Shown one piece after another: positions 2,432 through 20,791 of a stretch of 23,121 bases of DNA. A model generated the notes under the pieces. The model was not told where the DNA came from, searched no databases, and was given only the letters and a program-made list of their open reading frames with translations. Source of the DNA: Candidatus Gastranaerophilales bacterium (GTDB lineage: Bacteria > Cyanobacteriota > Vampirovibrionia > Gastranaerophilales > Gastranaerophilaceae). The stretch lies in NCBI GenBank assembly GCA_900548405.1, contig UNSJ01000031.1, positions 1-23,121 on the forward strand, written 5' to 3'. How positions within the stretch are numbered: position 1 is the first letter of the stretch; each line of letters opens with the position of its first letter. The translations under genes and the position numbers were made by a program.

Positions 2432-4090
2432 ATGTCAGAACAGATTTTATTACAGCCTATACAGGTGGCAAATAGCGACAAAGCAAAGGAAGCTTTGGAA
2501 AAAGCCCGAATAGCACACGAGAAATACCTAATACGACAGCAAAACTGCGACCTGGAAGAAGCGATTGAAAATTATATAGATGCGGTTAAATATGATCCTA
2601 CGATGCCTGAATCATATTACAGGCTTGCGACTTTAATGTGGGAACAAGGACAAATAAGCCTTGATACTGCTATTGAACAGTGCAAAACCGCAATATCACT
2701 TGCCCCGCAAAATGTCAATGCGCACCTTTACACCGGATTTTTCATGAAAATGGCACAGGATTTCAAATCTGCCGAATCAGAATTTAAATCTGCAATTAAA
2801 ATGGGCAAGTTGAAATCAGGTCGGCCGAGGTTAATTCTCTCTCAATCAATTTTGCAGAAAATTAATACTCAAAACGGTAATGCATCTGACTACCTGAACT
2901 TTTTATATTACTTCTTGTCAGGAAGTCTTATGCTTGCATGGGACAGACCGTCAATGAAAATGTTTTACAAAAACATGTCCGATGATTTTTCAGTATTCAG
3001 CTACAATACTATTGGAAAATTCTTAGAAAAATTTAAAATGTACCCTTCTGCTGAAAACATTTACAGAAAAGCTATTGCTGCAACTAATCACAGCGAAATC
3101 TTTTACAGCAAAATGGGGGATTTGGCATTAAAAAATCAAGAAATGGATTTAACAATTGACTGTTACAGAAAAGTTCTTGAAGCTAACCCTTTAAACAGAG
3201 AAGTACTTGTTAAGCTTGCAACTGTATTACAGACATATTTCCCTGATAATACTGATGAAACAATTGATTGTTATGAAAAACTTCTTGAATTTGACATAGA
3301 TACCCCGCAAATTTATTATGAACTCGGACATTTATACCTTAGAAAAGAAGATAAAATTAATTCTATAAGTGCGTTTAAACTTGCATTGGAAAGAGATTCA
3401 GAAAATCCTTTTTATAACAATTCATTAGCTTATGCATATTCAAAAGCAGAACTATATGATGATGCAATAGAACATTATCAAAAAGCTATTGCCTTAAACC
3501 CTGATAAAGAATGGACTTCAATAGTTTGTCAGGCATTAGGCTCGATATATGCGGAAATTAAAGGAAATATTGAAGCAGCAGTGTCTACTTACCAGGCAGG
3601 AATAATTCTTGATCCTAACAATTATGATTTATATCTTTCTTTAGGCGATGTTCATATGGCTGCATATGATTTAGACAATGCAATCAGGGCATACTGCGAT
3701 GCGATAACGCTTAATCCTGAAGATTACAGAGCGTATTCAAAAGCGGGTATTGCGCTTTGGGAAAAAGATTTTCTTGAAGAAGCACTTGTATCGTTCCATA
3801 AAGCAATTGATTTAAACCCCGATAATGAATTTGCCCAGAATAATTTGGGTATATTATACTTAGACGGTTTAGGCGATGCGGAAGAAGCTCTTGAATATTT
3901 TGAAACAGCAGTAGAATTAAACCCCAGCTATACTTTAGCTTACTTTAATGCAGGCAGAGCAAGTCAGGCTATGGGATTTATAAATGATGCCGCGAATTAC
4001 TATCAAATGGCAATTGATTTAAATAAAATCACTCAAGACCTTGATGAAGAAGACATTCAAACAAGACTTCACAAACTGTTTGATATATAG
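2432..4090 (+). CDS. TPR-repeat protein, 552 residues
   Basis: The protein consists almost entirely of tetratricopeptide repeats of about 34 residues. Units such as 'YYRLATLMWEQGQ', 'YYELGHLYLRKEDKINSI' and 'AYFNAGRASQAMGFINDA' recur, with the typical 'A(I)xLNP' unit ends. There is no signal peptide or membrane segment, so it is probably a cytoplasmic scaffold for protein contacts. Its partner cannot be told from the sequence. A TTG at 2429 lies in frame directly before the ATG at 2432. The GGAG at 2421-2424 is seven bases from the ATG, so ATG is preferred. The gene is followed at once by a promoter-like sequence and the prepilin gene. A second, unrelated TPR gene lies at 10997-12442. Confidence 0.85.
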   Translation: MSEQILLQPIQVANSDKAKEALEKARIAHEKYLIRQQNCDLEEAIENYIDAVKYDPTMPESYYRLATLMWEQGQISLDTAIEQCKTAISLAPQNVNAHLYTGFFMKMAQDFKSAESEFKSAIKMGKLKSGRPRLILSQSILQKINTQNGNASDYLNFLYYFLSGSLMLAWDRPSMKMFYKNMSDDFSVFSYNTIGKFLEKFKMYPSAENIYRKAIAATNHSEIFYSKMGDLALKNQEMDLTIDCYRKVLEANPLNREVLVKLATVLQTYFPDNTDETIDCYEKLLEFDIDTPQIYYELGHLYLRKEDKINSISAFKLALERDSENPFYNNSLAYAYSKAELYDDAIEHYQKAIALNPDKEWTSIVCQALGSIYAEIKGNIEAAVSTYQAGIILDPNNYDLYLSLGDVHMAAYDLDNAIRAYCDAITLNPEDYRAYSKAGIALWEKDFLEEALVSFHKAIDLNPDNEFAQNNLGILYLDGLGDAEEALEYFETAVELNPSYTLAYFNAGRASQAMGFINDAANYYQMAIDLNKITQDLDEEDIQTRLHKLFDI

Positions 4091-7074: not shown

Positions 7075-7103
7075 TTGACATGAAATTATTTTCAAGCTAA
7101 ATT
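7075..7103 (+). promoter_or_regulatory. Promoter for the tRNA-Leu transcription unit
   Basis: TTGACA (7075-7080), a 17-base spacer and TAAATT (7098-7103, four of six). It is preceded by ACTC, as in the tRNA-Pro promoter at 20408 (GCTCTTGACG). Transcription would start near 7110, so the tRNA-mimic unit at 7116-7230 would be in the leader of the tRNA-Leu precursor. Confidence 0.55.
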
Positions 7104-7115
7104 AGGTATACGCGC

Positions 7116-7230
7116 TAATAAAACCCTTTGGGTCTGTGGCACTCTGCCGAGAAAAACAATACTTAATTGTTTTTCGAGAGGTTGGTAGATATAGTCTAGC
7201 AATTTCGCAGTAACCCGTTGAAAATTAAAT
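7116..7230 (+). repeat. tRNA-mimic hairpin unit A (partial tRNA-Leu 5' copy)
   Basis: GGGTCTGTGGC (7130-7140) copies the first 11 bases of the downstream tRNA-Leu with one change, and the roughly 14 bases before it also match those before the tRNA. Then come ACTCTGCCGAG (7141-7151), a perfect 9-bp stem AAAAACAAT/ATTGTTTTT (7152-7160 with 7166-7174) and CGAGAG (7175-7180). The copy resumes with GTTGGTAGA, matching the tRNA D-loop, then diverges. It ends in TTGAAAATTAAAT (7218-7230), 13 bases identical to 20554-20566 in unit B1. There is no 3' tRNA half. I know of no named family that matches. Confidence 0.8.
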
Positions 7231-7241
7231 AAAAACCTTTT

Positions 7242-7326
7242 GGGCCTGTGGCGAAATTGGTAGACGCACTAGACTTAGGATCTAGCGCAGCGATGTGTGA
7301 GAGTTCGAGTCTCTCCGGGCCCACCA
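7242..7326 (+). tRNA. tRNA-Leu (anticodon UAG)
   Basis: A full cloverleaf can be drawn. The acceptor stem is GGGCCTG (7242-7248) with CGGGCCC (7316-7322). The D stem is GCG/CGC, and the anticodon stem CTAGA/TCTAG encloses TAG at 7276-7278. A class II variable arm CGCA/TGTG is capped by a GCGA loop. The T arm is GAGAG-TTCGAGT-CTCTC. The discriminator A and CCA are encoded. It reads CUA and other CUN leucine codons. Confidence 0.97.
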
Positions 7327-16121: not shown

Positions 16122-16898
16122 TTGTTTTTCAAATTCGGATTTAACAATTCGTATATGTTTAATAATCCATGCATGTGCAATCCGTTCTTGAATTTTCACA
16201 TGCCTGTGAACTTTATATCCTATAATAATTTTGGGGCTTTAAACTCTTTCAGTCCTTTAAATTATTTTCAAATGTTTCAAATGCCTGCAAGCAACTCAAT
16301 TTGGCAGCAGGCTGAATATAATATTCCAAAACTGGAAGATTCTCTCGTGACTAGTGAAGGTAACAAAAAAGAGAGCATTAATGTAAATACTCGTGTATCT
16401 GTACAGCAAAAATCCGTAAAAAGAAAAGAAAGAAGCAAAACTGTTTCTGCAGAAACAAATGTTCAAGAAGCAAAAAATACAAAAGCCGGCGAAGATAAAA
16501 TAATTGTCAAAGGTGTCGAATACAACAAAAAGAATGGAGAAAAACTTGCACAAAGAGTTCTTGACGGTCTGCCCGCAAACAGAACCGAGCCTTTATGTGC
16601 AAAATATGTAAAAGAAGCTATAAGAGATGTAGGGTTAGGCCCCTACATAGAAGGAGATGGCTACTACTGTCAATACATTCTCAGAGCAAACCCGAATTTT
16701 GAAGAAATCAAAGTAAAAGGCAATGAGCTCTCGTCACTGCCTGCGGGCTGCATTATAGTTTATGACAAAGGCGACGGCGGATACAGCACTGATAGCGGTC
16801 ATGTTGAAATTACTCTTGGCGACGGCAGAGCATGCAGCGACATTATTACAAATAATATTGAACCGTCAGATAATGCTCACGTTTTTGTTCCTGTTTAA
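16122..16898 (+). CDS. CHAP/NlpC-P60-like cysteine hydrolase, paralogue 1
   Basis: The C-terminal 130 residues resemble papain-like amidases that cleave peptidoglycan peptides or similar amides. A cysteine opens a helix in 'LCAKYVKEAI' (C159), and a histidine follows in 'SGHVEITLGDGRA' (H227) after the strand 'LPAGCIIVYD'. The N-terminal 120 residues are low-complexity, first Asn/Phe/Met-rich, then Lys/Glu-rich. There is no signal peptide, so the export route is unknown. The start is TTG 16122 with AAGGGG six bases upstream. The same layout in the paralogue at 16976 supports it over ATG 16155. Both share a C-terminal block and an 'SNS(S)IW' motif in the N-terminal part. Family assignment rests on the Cys/His pattern, so the true substrate is uncertain. 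Confidence 0.7.
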   Translation: MFFKFGFNNSYMFNNPCMCNPFLNFHMPVNFISYNNFGALNSFSPLNYFQMFQMPASNSIWQQAEYNIPKLEDSLVTSEGNKKESINVNTRVSVQQKSVKRKERSKTVSAETNVQEAKNTKAGEDKIIVKGVEYNKKNGEKLAQRVLDGLPANRTEPLCAKYVKEAIRDVGLGPYIEGDGYYCQYILRANPNFEEIKVKGNELSSLPAGCIIVYDKGDGGYSTDSGHVEITLGDGRACSDIITNNIEPSDNAHVFVPV

Positions 16899-16932
16899 AA
16901 AAGTTTACAATAAAGGCAATTTCTACCTTTAA

Positions 16933-16975
16933 AAATACTTTATATGTATAGAGGAAATTTTAAGGGGATATTACA
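16933..16975 (+). promoter_or_regulatory. Leader of second CHAP-like gene
   Basis: AAATACTTTATAT (16933-16945) repeats the block of the first paralogue's leader. TTAAGGGGATAT puts AAGGGG (16962-16967) eight bases before TTG 16976. Shared sequence between two tandem genes suggests shared control or a recent duplication. Confidence 0.5.
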
Positions 16976-17590
16976 TTGAGTTTATTAAACTTCAATATTG
17001 ATAATACAAAATATTTGCGTGATTTCAGCAGTTCATCAGGCTCAATTGGTTTGTCCTCATACGGTTCTCTTTCAAGCGGTAATATATTCAATCTTTATAA
17101 TACTCTTTATTCAAAACCGGTTTTAAAGTCAAACTCAAGTATATGGACTTCATCTCAAAACAGAAAACTTCTTTATAATACAGGTTCTTCAAAAATCCTT
17201 CCGTCTTTGAAAGAAGCCGGCTATAACGCTAAAAAAGGAAACAGACTGGCAAGTATCGCAGCTCAAAATGCAAAAGATTTTACAGGTCAATGCGCAACAT
17301 ATGTAAAAAATGCAATCCAAGAAGCAGGTATGGGCAAATACATAAAAGGAGATGCATATGAATGCGCTAATATATTAAAAAGAAACAAAGAAAACTTTAA
17401 AGAAATTTCCACAAAAGGACTTGATTTATCTTCACTGCCAAAAGGCTGTGCACTAGTCTATGACAGAGGTGTTTCTAATTACAGTTCAGACTCAGGTCAT
17501 ATAGAAATAACTTTAGGAAACGGAAAAGCAGCAAGCGATGGTATTACAAACAATATCAGACCCGGCGCAAGAGTATTTATCCCTGTTTAA
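16976..17590 (+). CDS. CHAP/NlpC-P60-like cysteine hydrolase, paralogue 2
   Basis: The 204-residue product has the same C-terminal domain as its neighbour: 'GQCATYVKNAIQEAGMGKYI' (C106), 'LPKGCALVYD', and 'SDSGHIEITLGNG' (H175), ending in 'RVFIPV' as the neighbour ends in 'HVFVPV'. The N-terminal 90 residues are Ser/Asn/Tyr-rich with no signal peptide and contain 'SNSSIW'. A peptidoglycan or peptide amidase role is inferred. The N-terminal parts of the two paralogues have diverged far more than the catalytic parts, which suggests they set targeting or specificity. The TTG start is supported by AAGGGG eight bases upstream. The end overlaps convergent coaE by 14 bases. Confidence 0.72.
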   Translation: MSLLNFNIDNTKYLRDFSSSSGSIGLSSYGSLSSGNIFNLYNTLYSKPVLKSNSSIWTSSQNRKLLYNTGSSKILPSLKEAGYNAKKGNRLASIAAQNAKDFTGQCATYVKNAIQEAGMGKYIKGDAYECANILKRNKENFKEISTKGLDLSSLPKGCALVYDRGVSNYSSDSGHIEITLGNGKAASDGITNNIRPGARVFIPV

Positions 17591-20407: not shown

Positions 20408-20436
20408 TTGACGTTTAAAAATGTTTATTTTAAAAT
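20408..20436 (+). promoter_or_regulatory. Promoter for the tRNA-Pro transcription unit
   Basis: TTGACG (20408-20413), a 17-base spacer and TAAAAT (20431-20436, five of six). The flanking GCTCTTGAC resembles the tRNA-Leu promoter (ACTCTTGAC). Transcription would start near 20443, before both tRNA-mimic units. Confidence 0.6.
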
Positions 20437-20466
20437 AATTCTTGTCGCCATTACGGTGATATACCC

Positions 20467-20566
20467 CGTCGGGATGTGGCACTCTGCCGAGTGAAATAAT
20501 CCGGGGAATTGTTTCACGAGAGGTGGTAGCGCACCTTTTCAAATGTGGAACATTTGAAAATTAAAT
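20467..20566 (+). repeat. tRNA-mimic hairpin unit B1 (partial tRNA-Pro 5' copy)
   Basis: CGGGATGTGGC (20470-20480) is identical to the first 11 bases of tRNA-Pro. Then come ACTCTGCCGAG (20481-20491), a stem with at least 10 bp outside a small mismatch (GTGAAATAAT with ATTGTTTCAC, 20491-20500 with 20508-20517), and CGAGAG (20517-20522). TGGTAGCGCACCT, as in tRNA-Pro up to the anticodon stem, follows. In place of the anticodon arm is a second hairpin, TTTTCAAATG/CATTTGAAAA (20536-20560), ending in TTGAAAATTAAAT as in unit A. Confidence 0.8.
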
Positions 20567-20569
20567 ATC

Positions 20570-20660
20570 TTCGGGATGTGGCACTCTGCCGAGAAAAACG
20601 ATTGAGTATCGTTTTTTGAGAGGGGTAGCGCACCTGAGCAAAACGTAAGTTTTGCGAATA
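20570..20660 (+). repeat. tRNA-mimic hairpin unit B2 (partial tRNA-Pro 5' copy)
   Basis: The second tandem unit starts 102 bases after B1 and 99 before tRNA-Pro. CGGGATGTGGC (20572-20582), ACTCTGCCGAG (20583-20593), a perfect 9-bp stem AAAAACGAT/ATCGTTTTT (20594-20602 with 20608-20616), TGAGAG, then GGTAGCGCACCT. The anticodon arm is replaced by GCAAAAC-GTAA-GTTTTGC (20638-20655). Compared with unit A, the stem differs at one base with the compensating change on the other strand. Confidence 0.8.
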
Positions 20661-20670
20661 ACATAACTGT

Positions 20671-20747
20671 CGGGATGTGGCGCAGCTTGGTAGCGCACCT
20701 CGCTTGGGACGAGGGGGTCGCACGTTCAAATCGTGTCATCCCGACCA
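20671..20747 (+). tRNA. tRNA-Pro (anticodon UGG)
   Basis: The acceptor stem is CGGGATG (20671-20677) with CATCCCG. D stem GCGC/GCGC, anticodon stem CCTCG/CGAGG enclosing TGG at 20705-20707, T arm GCACG-TTCAAAT-CGTGT, then discriminator A and an encoded CCA (20745-20747). It would read CCN codons. Its 3' side borders the putative integrated element. Confidence 0.97.
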
Positions 20748-20756
20748 TTTAGAACA

Positions 20757-20791
20757 AAAGGCTTTTAGGAATTTTCCTGAAAGCCTTTTTT
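20757..20791 (+). terminator. Intrinsic terminator of tRNA-Pro
   Basis: AAAGGCTTTTAGGA pairs with TCCTGAAAGCCTTT (14 bp with one T-G pair) around a 4-base loop, followed by six T (20786-20791). Confidence 0.92.

Follow-up and report, generated by a model that had tools for sequence, protein, structure and literature searches.

Many tRNA genes of Gastranaerophilales are preceded by hairpin-interrupted copies of their own start

Tandem repeats that adjoin a tRNA gene and each open with a copy of a tRNA end are known from the tyrT locus of E. coli (rtT RNA); they copy the 3' end of one tRNA and are located downstream. T-boxes recognise tRNA through complementarity and for the most part regulate protein genes, integrative elements attach at tRNA 3' ends, and integrons use hairpin attC sites. 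Small dispersed repeats exist in cyanobacteria; to our knowledge these have no tRNA-specific flanks. REP elements are GTAG- or CGTC-tagged palindromes associated with RAYT transposases, and the paper describing them mentions tRNA four times, in connection with tRNA synthetase and pseudouridine synthase genes (PMC3733652). A literature search at the level of result listings returned no description of tRNA-copying units of the kind reported here, and our data point to a type of repeat, so far unrecognised, that resides on tRNA genes and may influence them.

The analysed stretch of DNA (the window; 23,121 nt of a Candidatus Gastranaerophilales contig) contains two units, B1 and B2, before tRNA-Pro(tgg) and one unit before tRNA-Leu(tag), all on the forward strand. 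Both Pro units consist of bases 1-11 of tRNA-Pro, a hairpin of 40-42 nt with constant ends (ACTCTGCCGAG-stem-GAGAG; module A), GGTAGCGCACC, a second hairpin and an A+T-rich spacer. In B1, the tRNA copy or mimic CGGGATGTGGC (20470-20480) is identical at 11/11 positions to 20671-20681 and is followed by a 42-nt module A (20481-20522), whose stem covaries across distinct cores. The sequence GTGGTAGCGCACC (20523-20535) then resumes the 3' strand of the tRNA-Pro D-arm, as read directly, and the second hairpin TTTTCAAATGT-GGA-ACATTTGAAAA (20536-20560) occupies the place of the would-be anticodon arm. B2 repeats this layout with the mimic CGGGATGTGGC (20572-20582; 11/11 identical), a 40-nt module A (20583-20622), the directly read D-arm 3' strand copy GGGTAGCGCACC (20623-20634) and a second hairpin GCAAAAC-GTAA-GTTTTGC (20638-20655). 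The intact tRNA-Pro(tgg), recognised by ARAGORN and Rfam, extends from 20671 to 20747. A sequence-only reading of 20467-20671 had claimed that B1 and B2 share the core of the Leu unit while their flanks copy tRNA-Pro, with a tandem spacing of about 100 bases; this observation proved real, and the mimic-to-mimic distances are 102 and 99 nt.

The Leu unit begins at 7130-7140 with a copy of tRNA-Leu bases 1-11 that has one mismatch (GGGTCTG for GGGCCTG), followed by a 40-nt module A (7141-7180) and the D-arm copy GTTGGTAGA (7181-7189). It also contains, additional to what the earlier reading had described, an inverted copy of tRNA-Leu bases 10-24, GTCTAGCAATTTCGC (7194-7208; 14/15 identical, score 12 with 6 for the best other isotype), which includes D-loop bases missing from the unit's own sense copy. 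The intact tRNA-Leu(tag) lies at 7242-7326 (ARAGORN, Rfam). The exact 11-mer ACTCTGCCGAG occurs three times in the window, each time inside a unit; allowing two mismatches there are 7 matches, compared with a mean of 1.85 in shuffled sequence (7 reached in 2/100 shuffles). Promoter-like sites are found upstream of both Pro units (TTGACG-17-TAAAAT, 20408-20436) and of the Leu unit (TTGACA-17-TAAATT, 7075-7103), each by its consensus match alone, with 0.8 and 0.7 such sites, respectively, expected by chance. Lying between these sites and the tRNAs, the units would be expected in the pre-tRNA, and they are probably transcribed as part of its leader. A TTGAAAATTAAATA-like spacer recurs right before units and tRNAs in many leaders and presumably resembles one from rRNA operons.

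A search of the window against Rfam 15 at gathering score detected no family except the two tRNAs, and when the threshold was relaxed for 20420-20760, the highest-scoring match other than tRNA had 21.7 bits against a cut-off of 50. The E. coli tyrT repeats appear to be the nearest arrangement, as they too are tandem repeats next to a tRNA gene that each start with a copy of a tRNA end; unlike them, the window units copy 5' ends and lie upstream, and across the order many isotypes are copied and a hairpin is inserted. The units gave no Rfam match, and 3' units occur at other tRNAs of the order. As in T-boxes, the leader sequence relates to one tRNA, but here the leader is a sense copy of that tRNA and lies in front of the tRNA it copies, and Rfam gave no T-box match. 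With the small dispersed repeats of cyanobacteria the units share their very small size and a related phylum.

Sequences matching the module A core pattern were found in at least 119 stretches of a species-genome collection, with a pattern that required GC in front of the core and G behind it, which biases the loci to this context. Among the 80 matches listed, seven titles name other groups and the rest name Gastranaerophilales, Melainabacteria, cyanobacteria or unnamed bacteria; six of the seven lack a hairpin by the palindrome test, and the seventh is locus L076. The pattern CTCTGCCGAG-N(6-36)-GAGAG is present in 87 of 146 Gastranaerophilales genomes, and the reversed control pattern gave 0 matches in every one of the 146. 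Carrier genomes mostly hold 1-13 copies, one holds 17, and five hold 30-55 (G001, G035, G091, G095, G119). The 55 copies of G001, as far as inspected, mostly lie outside tRNA loci within a longer repeat (GTCCGAGAAAG ... TTAGACAGC-core-...). Module A ranges from 36 to 46 nt in length. A search of phage records revealed no similarity to the units, and viral contigs gave at least 120 loose matches, among which two of those listed are hairpin-like and one is convincing (L174). This IMG/VR contig has a module A hairpin at about 3450-3500, in a locus without a tRNA gene, and might represent a phage carrier.

REP elements resemble module A in being small intergenic palindromes with variable loops that are dispersed and sometimes clustered (PMC3733652). 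Module A is likewise a short palindrome with a conserved stem (an inner palindrome in 266 of the 275 distinct matches at the loci in hand; stems covary), and RAYT-like genes are present in Gastranaerophilales. Unlike REP elements, module A has no constant tag (GTAG right after it in 43/266 copies; GTAG or CGTC right before it in 0/266), most carrier genomes hold no more than 17 copies, five being richer as listed above, and 183 of 266 copies sit in copies of tRNA ends. By the definition in PMC3733652, REP elements are the nearest kind to module A, but the defining tag is missing.

The 266 hairpin-forming copies comprise 170 that follow a tRNA 5' end, 13 that follow a reversed 3' end and 83 that follow neither, at a threshold of one mismatch to the tRNA ends of a library assembled in this analysis; random 12-mers matched a 5' end in 3/600 and a reversed 3' end in 2/600 cases. 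By eye, some of these 83 still derive from a tRNA and fell outside the threshold (e.g. the Pro-like units of L355). These counts, and those of the 139 units below, describe the loci in hand, many of which were picked by their core, and are not a random sample. The expectation that flanks always track the downstream tRNA is thus unsupported in this form, given the 83 copies that match no tRNA end at this threshold. The tracking flanks set the units apart from a plain dispersed repeat, as had been proposed, but a dispersed palindrome nevertheless forms part of the story, as these 83 copies and G001 show.

A set of 139 module-A-like units lies no more than 330 nt upstream of a tRNA. In 121 of them the left flank matched its own tRNA better than every other isotype, with 10 ties and 8 that did not; in 105 it had no mismatch to its own tRNA. 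The mean mismatch score of the left flank was 0.66 for the own tRNA versus 4.64 for other isotypes, and the longest exact run in the right flank averaged 8.5 nt versus 2.9 nt. The match extends to the variant within an amino acid: all 98 testable units (at least two tRNA variants, insertion at base 10-13, at most two mismatches; three Lys units with one variant left out) were closest to their own tRNA variant, often by one base. That the core is common and the flanks fit the local tRNA therefore holds in many genomes and down to the single base. In homologous units on differing tRNAs, with the rest of the unit at least 80% identical over 75 nt, the mimic changed in lock-step with the tRNA in 101/101 pairs. 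These pairs cover Pro, Met, Leu and Val, excluding units with more than two mismatches or with the module outside tRNA positions 10-13, and are non-independent, as three Pro tRNA contrasts account for 92 of the 101 and few independent events underlie them. The tracking reaches tRNA position 9, a base that takes part in no stem of the tRNA, and this favours copying over pairing as its cause.

These results bear on whether the units could be an ordinary dispersed repeat that lies near tRNAs by chance, or an assembly artefact. Several MAG contigs end inside arrays, as repeats cause. Chance placement is already refuted for the flanks by the 98 variant-specific matches and the rarity of random ones (3/600), the two Pro units of the window differ from each other in sequence, and arrays occur within long contigs, e.g. 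two Leu(cag) units inside a 1.03 Mb contig of G007. We consider this explanation extremely improbable. Assembly collapse, which had been named as a possible refutation, does not account for units that recur across many assemblies with differing sequences.

The units are not restricted to module A. Among 261 distinct tRNA contexts we detected 165 copies of a tRNA 5' end, of which 133 hold module A, 13 hold module B (AAGGACTCC ... GGAGG) and 19 hold another insert by a simple motif rule, a few of these 19 being decayed module A. Module A is thus not the sole insert: module B and other sequences occupy the same place, and module B can replace it. Module B units were found in the Pro leaders of L384, L390, L392, L397 and L402, where they are 88-95% identical between species, and in L013, L024 and L098. 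Unlike a tandem tRNA gene duplication, the 5' copies are interrupted and cease matching at tRNA base 8-28, in 131/165 at base 11-12. A 6-base tRNA stretch returns after at least 12 bases in 132/165, and a stem of at least 6 pairs lies within the next 70 bases in 143/165, a value given without shuffle control. One copy of the 165 has no insert, an 11-nt repeat located 14 nt before Thr(ggt) in L438 (G007). This bare repeat leaves no room for a hairpin and is possibly a remnant or a chance match. The survey of 5' copies, like that of two genomes below, detects only copies with at most one mismatch in an 11-base probe.

Mirror images of these units exist at tRNA 3' ends. Copies of at least the last 12 tRNA bases lie downstream of tRNAs in 51 cases, one of which (L038) spans 44 bases; 20 of the 51 hold reversed module A and 13 a module T motif, which in some 3' units is carried in the T-loop. 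Several 3' units repeat a terminator-like hairpin by eye. Copies of the 3' end were also noted 77-209 nt downstream of intact tRNAs in L062 (5325-5660), L081, L018, L020, L114, L023 and at tRNAs of G020. Module T is moreover nested within module A in L374, L377 and L385; in L374 and L377 it has GAGC on both sides by eye, which suggests the insertion of one small palindrome into another.

The hairpins of the units are retained while their sequences change. In 50 distinct 40-nt cores, 96% of the pairs are standard versus 77% in shuffles, and 94 double-sided changes were counted versus 23, both values being reached by 0/500 shuffles, with a pairing register picked on the same sequences as tested. 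In 38- and 44-nt cores extra pair types were not above shuffles (reached by 309 and 173 of 500). The second hairpin, which had been reported for both Pro units, is general: its sequence varies and its stem is kept, with a stem of at least 7 pairs in 42/107 units versus 0.7 expected from two-base-block shuffles. A Pro unit of type A is 91-96% identical over 82 nt among five loci of the window's genus (10 pairs), whereas in the same five species a linked gene shares only 36-45% identity at its fourfold sites. The 5' flank of this unit is less conserved and gapped in most pairs, although one such flank (L392-L402) reaches 0.89 across 36 aligned bases; among B units, too, some 5' flanks are well conserved (0.82-0.91 in 4/10 pairs). 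In these sequence comparisons the excess conservation is clearest for unit A taken as a whole; it favours constraint or function, or else recent spread, and argues against pure junk.

Such conservation would fit a cis-acting leader RNA, in which a half-tRNA decoy with two hairpins gates the folding or the 5' processing of its tRNA. The strand identical to the tRNA would compete with the authentic 5' half for pairing with the 3' acceptor strand, and the inverted D-arm copy that some units possess could pair with the tRNA or the decoy; the flanks would track the tRNA because both strands must match the same partner. The position of the units downstream of promoter-like sites is consistent with this model, as are the mostly perfect mimics (105/139) with few intermediates, the maintenance of both hairpins described above and a conservation of unit A far beyond fourfold sites. 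Inverted tRNA-specific segments beat all other isotypes in 40/154 units (mean score 7.4 vs 5.7); they are pronounced in Leu(caa), Phe, Asp, Arg(cct), the Leu(taa) unit of L277 and the Leu unit of the window, and average no more than control level in the sets of Val, Ile, Thr(ggt) and Leu(tag), of which single members, the Val unit of L022 and the window's Leu unit, do have such a segment. In thermodynamic folds of 111 leaders, the predicted acceptor stem of the tRNA dropped from 0.95 to 0.15 when the leader was present, which is of weak help, since the effect is unspecific: with 110 control leaders it was 0.04 when the mimic was kept and the rest shuffled, 0.35 with the mimic shuffled, 0.38 with the leader wholly shuffled and 0.51 with that of another isotype. 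Folding competition was thus rejected as proof of a switch, as control leaders disrupt the stem too, one kind more strongly. The leader model also leaves the tracking of position 9 without a stem partner, units are often absent or decayed, and the inspected 3' units lie beyond a terminator-like hairpin. The non-tRNA copies, these 3' units and the frequent loss argue against an essential role, and we regard a leader RNA of this type, the main alternative to the reading favoured below, as possible but doubtful. A more general version, a system of hairpin-armoured, tRNA-specific half-tRNA decoys at tRNA 5' and 3' ends that coevolve with their own tRNA base by base, gate the folding or processing of the co-transcribed tRNA and so place each tRNA under a leader control of its own, seems to us unlikely. 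If the units did act in the transcript, they would form a tRNA-specific control layer that is absent from the sources searched; in either case, conserved hairpins that covary are present in the tRNA leaders of these gut bacteria, those of the window being unmatched by Rfam.

Comparison of orthologous loci, as the earlier reading had suggested, revealed gain or loss, with 0, 1 or 2 units at the same tRNA in relatives. At tRNA-Pro(tgg), 10 of 25 loci (24 relatives and the window) have units and 15 have none; the count of 10 includes altered, decayed or nested units (L402, L404, L385), and at one unit-free locus the sequence extends just 84 nt upstream. The tRNA-Leu(tag) set comprises 27 loci, 23 of which include the tRNA; 12 of these 23 carry units and 11 do not, one of the 11 having just 57 nt upstream. 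These states were read from the sequences by eye. Filled and empty neighbours with similar upstream flanks are L384/L389 and L393/L403, and decayed or altered units were seen in L402, L404 and L373. Genome G020 has 5' copies at 10/38 tRNAs and 3' copies at 9/38, or 10 with one base of slack, which adds Asn. G007, close to the window as judged by a 1.3-kb gene with 79% similarity, carries 5' copies with a hairpin at 1/43 tRNAs plus the bare Thr(ggt) repeat, which likewise enters with one base of slack, and no 3' copies among the 43. A search of two genomes for a clean empty site of a dispersed module A copy gave 0 matches, which counts against transposition of module A. Related species that differ in this way make the origin, turnover and effect of the units directly testable.

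Alternatively, the units could be non-coding cassettes, each specific to one tRNA, that a site-specific recombinase inserts with the tRNA 5' end serving as its attachment site, by analogy to integrative elements and integrons. Pro units A and B keep conserved bodies wherever they recur and differ in order (L392, B before A; L402, A before B; the window, two of type A), Pro(tgg) and Pro(cgg) loci share unit bodies with up to 96% identity, each with the flank of its own tRNA, and the ends of the hairpins are conserved around a variable middle, all of which would suit cassettes. The position of the module within the tRNA varies, however, from base 6 to 26, no recombinase gene was found linked to the units in a search that covered Y1_Tnp, and the duplicated stretch has no sharp edge: in 111 units, the identity of the first unit to the tRNA's own leader starts at 0.81 at position -1 and fades gradually to roughly 0.5 by position -18 (control 0.23-0.47). 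We judge cassettes to be quite improbable. A model with a sharp target-site duplication was rejected on the same gradual fading upstream of base 1.

The reading that we favour, to which we give about an even chance, is that mobile, palindromic, REP-like hairpins sit in partial copies of tRNA ends, which are kept identical to the tRNA by recombination between repeats. Each unit is a partial 5' copy of the tRNA that it precedes, comprising bases 1-11, a D-arm stretch and some of the upstream leader, and this copy is interrupted by module A, a small palindrome belonging to a family with members outside tRNA loci. As a REP-like mobile hairpin, module A may settle in the arms of tRNA gene ends, and only insertions adjoining an intact tRNA would persist. 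Recombination or slippage between the tRNA-identical direct repeats could then expand or contract the number of units, and this turnover would repeatedly re-copy the tRNA's own bases into the unit, which would explain why the flanks track even position 9. Units in the putative pre-tRNA could, in addition, compete with the tRNA for its 3' strand. The family would thus be one whose flanks are rewritten by the neighbouring gene, a natural record, at single-base resolution, of concerted evolution between a gene and its truncated copies.

Hints of mobility are the copies outside tRNA loci, module T nested in module A, and a RAYT gene in the loop of a module A hairpin (L490). Against a mobile hairpin counts the conservation of the Pro A unit, which exceeds that expected of a neutral remnant, and the near-lack of insert-free copies (1/165) is not predicted by a two-step history of duplication followed by insertion. 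Genomes that carry Y1/RAYT genes are not clearly richer in module A (31/46 carriers vs 56/100 non-carriers by hand count). RAYT was rejected as the mover of module A, as it has no clear association with module A presence and its own palindromes differ. A scan of 26 Y1_Tnp loci detected module A sequence near four (L488, L490, L495, L509), and the palindromes adjoining the RAYT genes at those four are of a GTAG/GTCG-GTTGGG type and not module A. In L488 (G060) and L490, a RAYT-like gene with GTAG/GTCG palindromes lies inside, or replaces, the module A hairpin of tRNA-Phe 3' units; in L490 (700-1800; G085) the RAYT gene with its own GTAG palindromes is located in the loop of this hairpin.

In a different part of the window, at 16122-17590, two adjoining ORFs have similar C-terminal halves (SGHVEITLG-type) and are apparently tandem paralogues.
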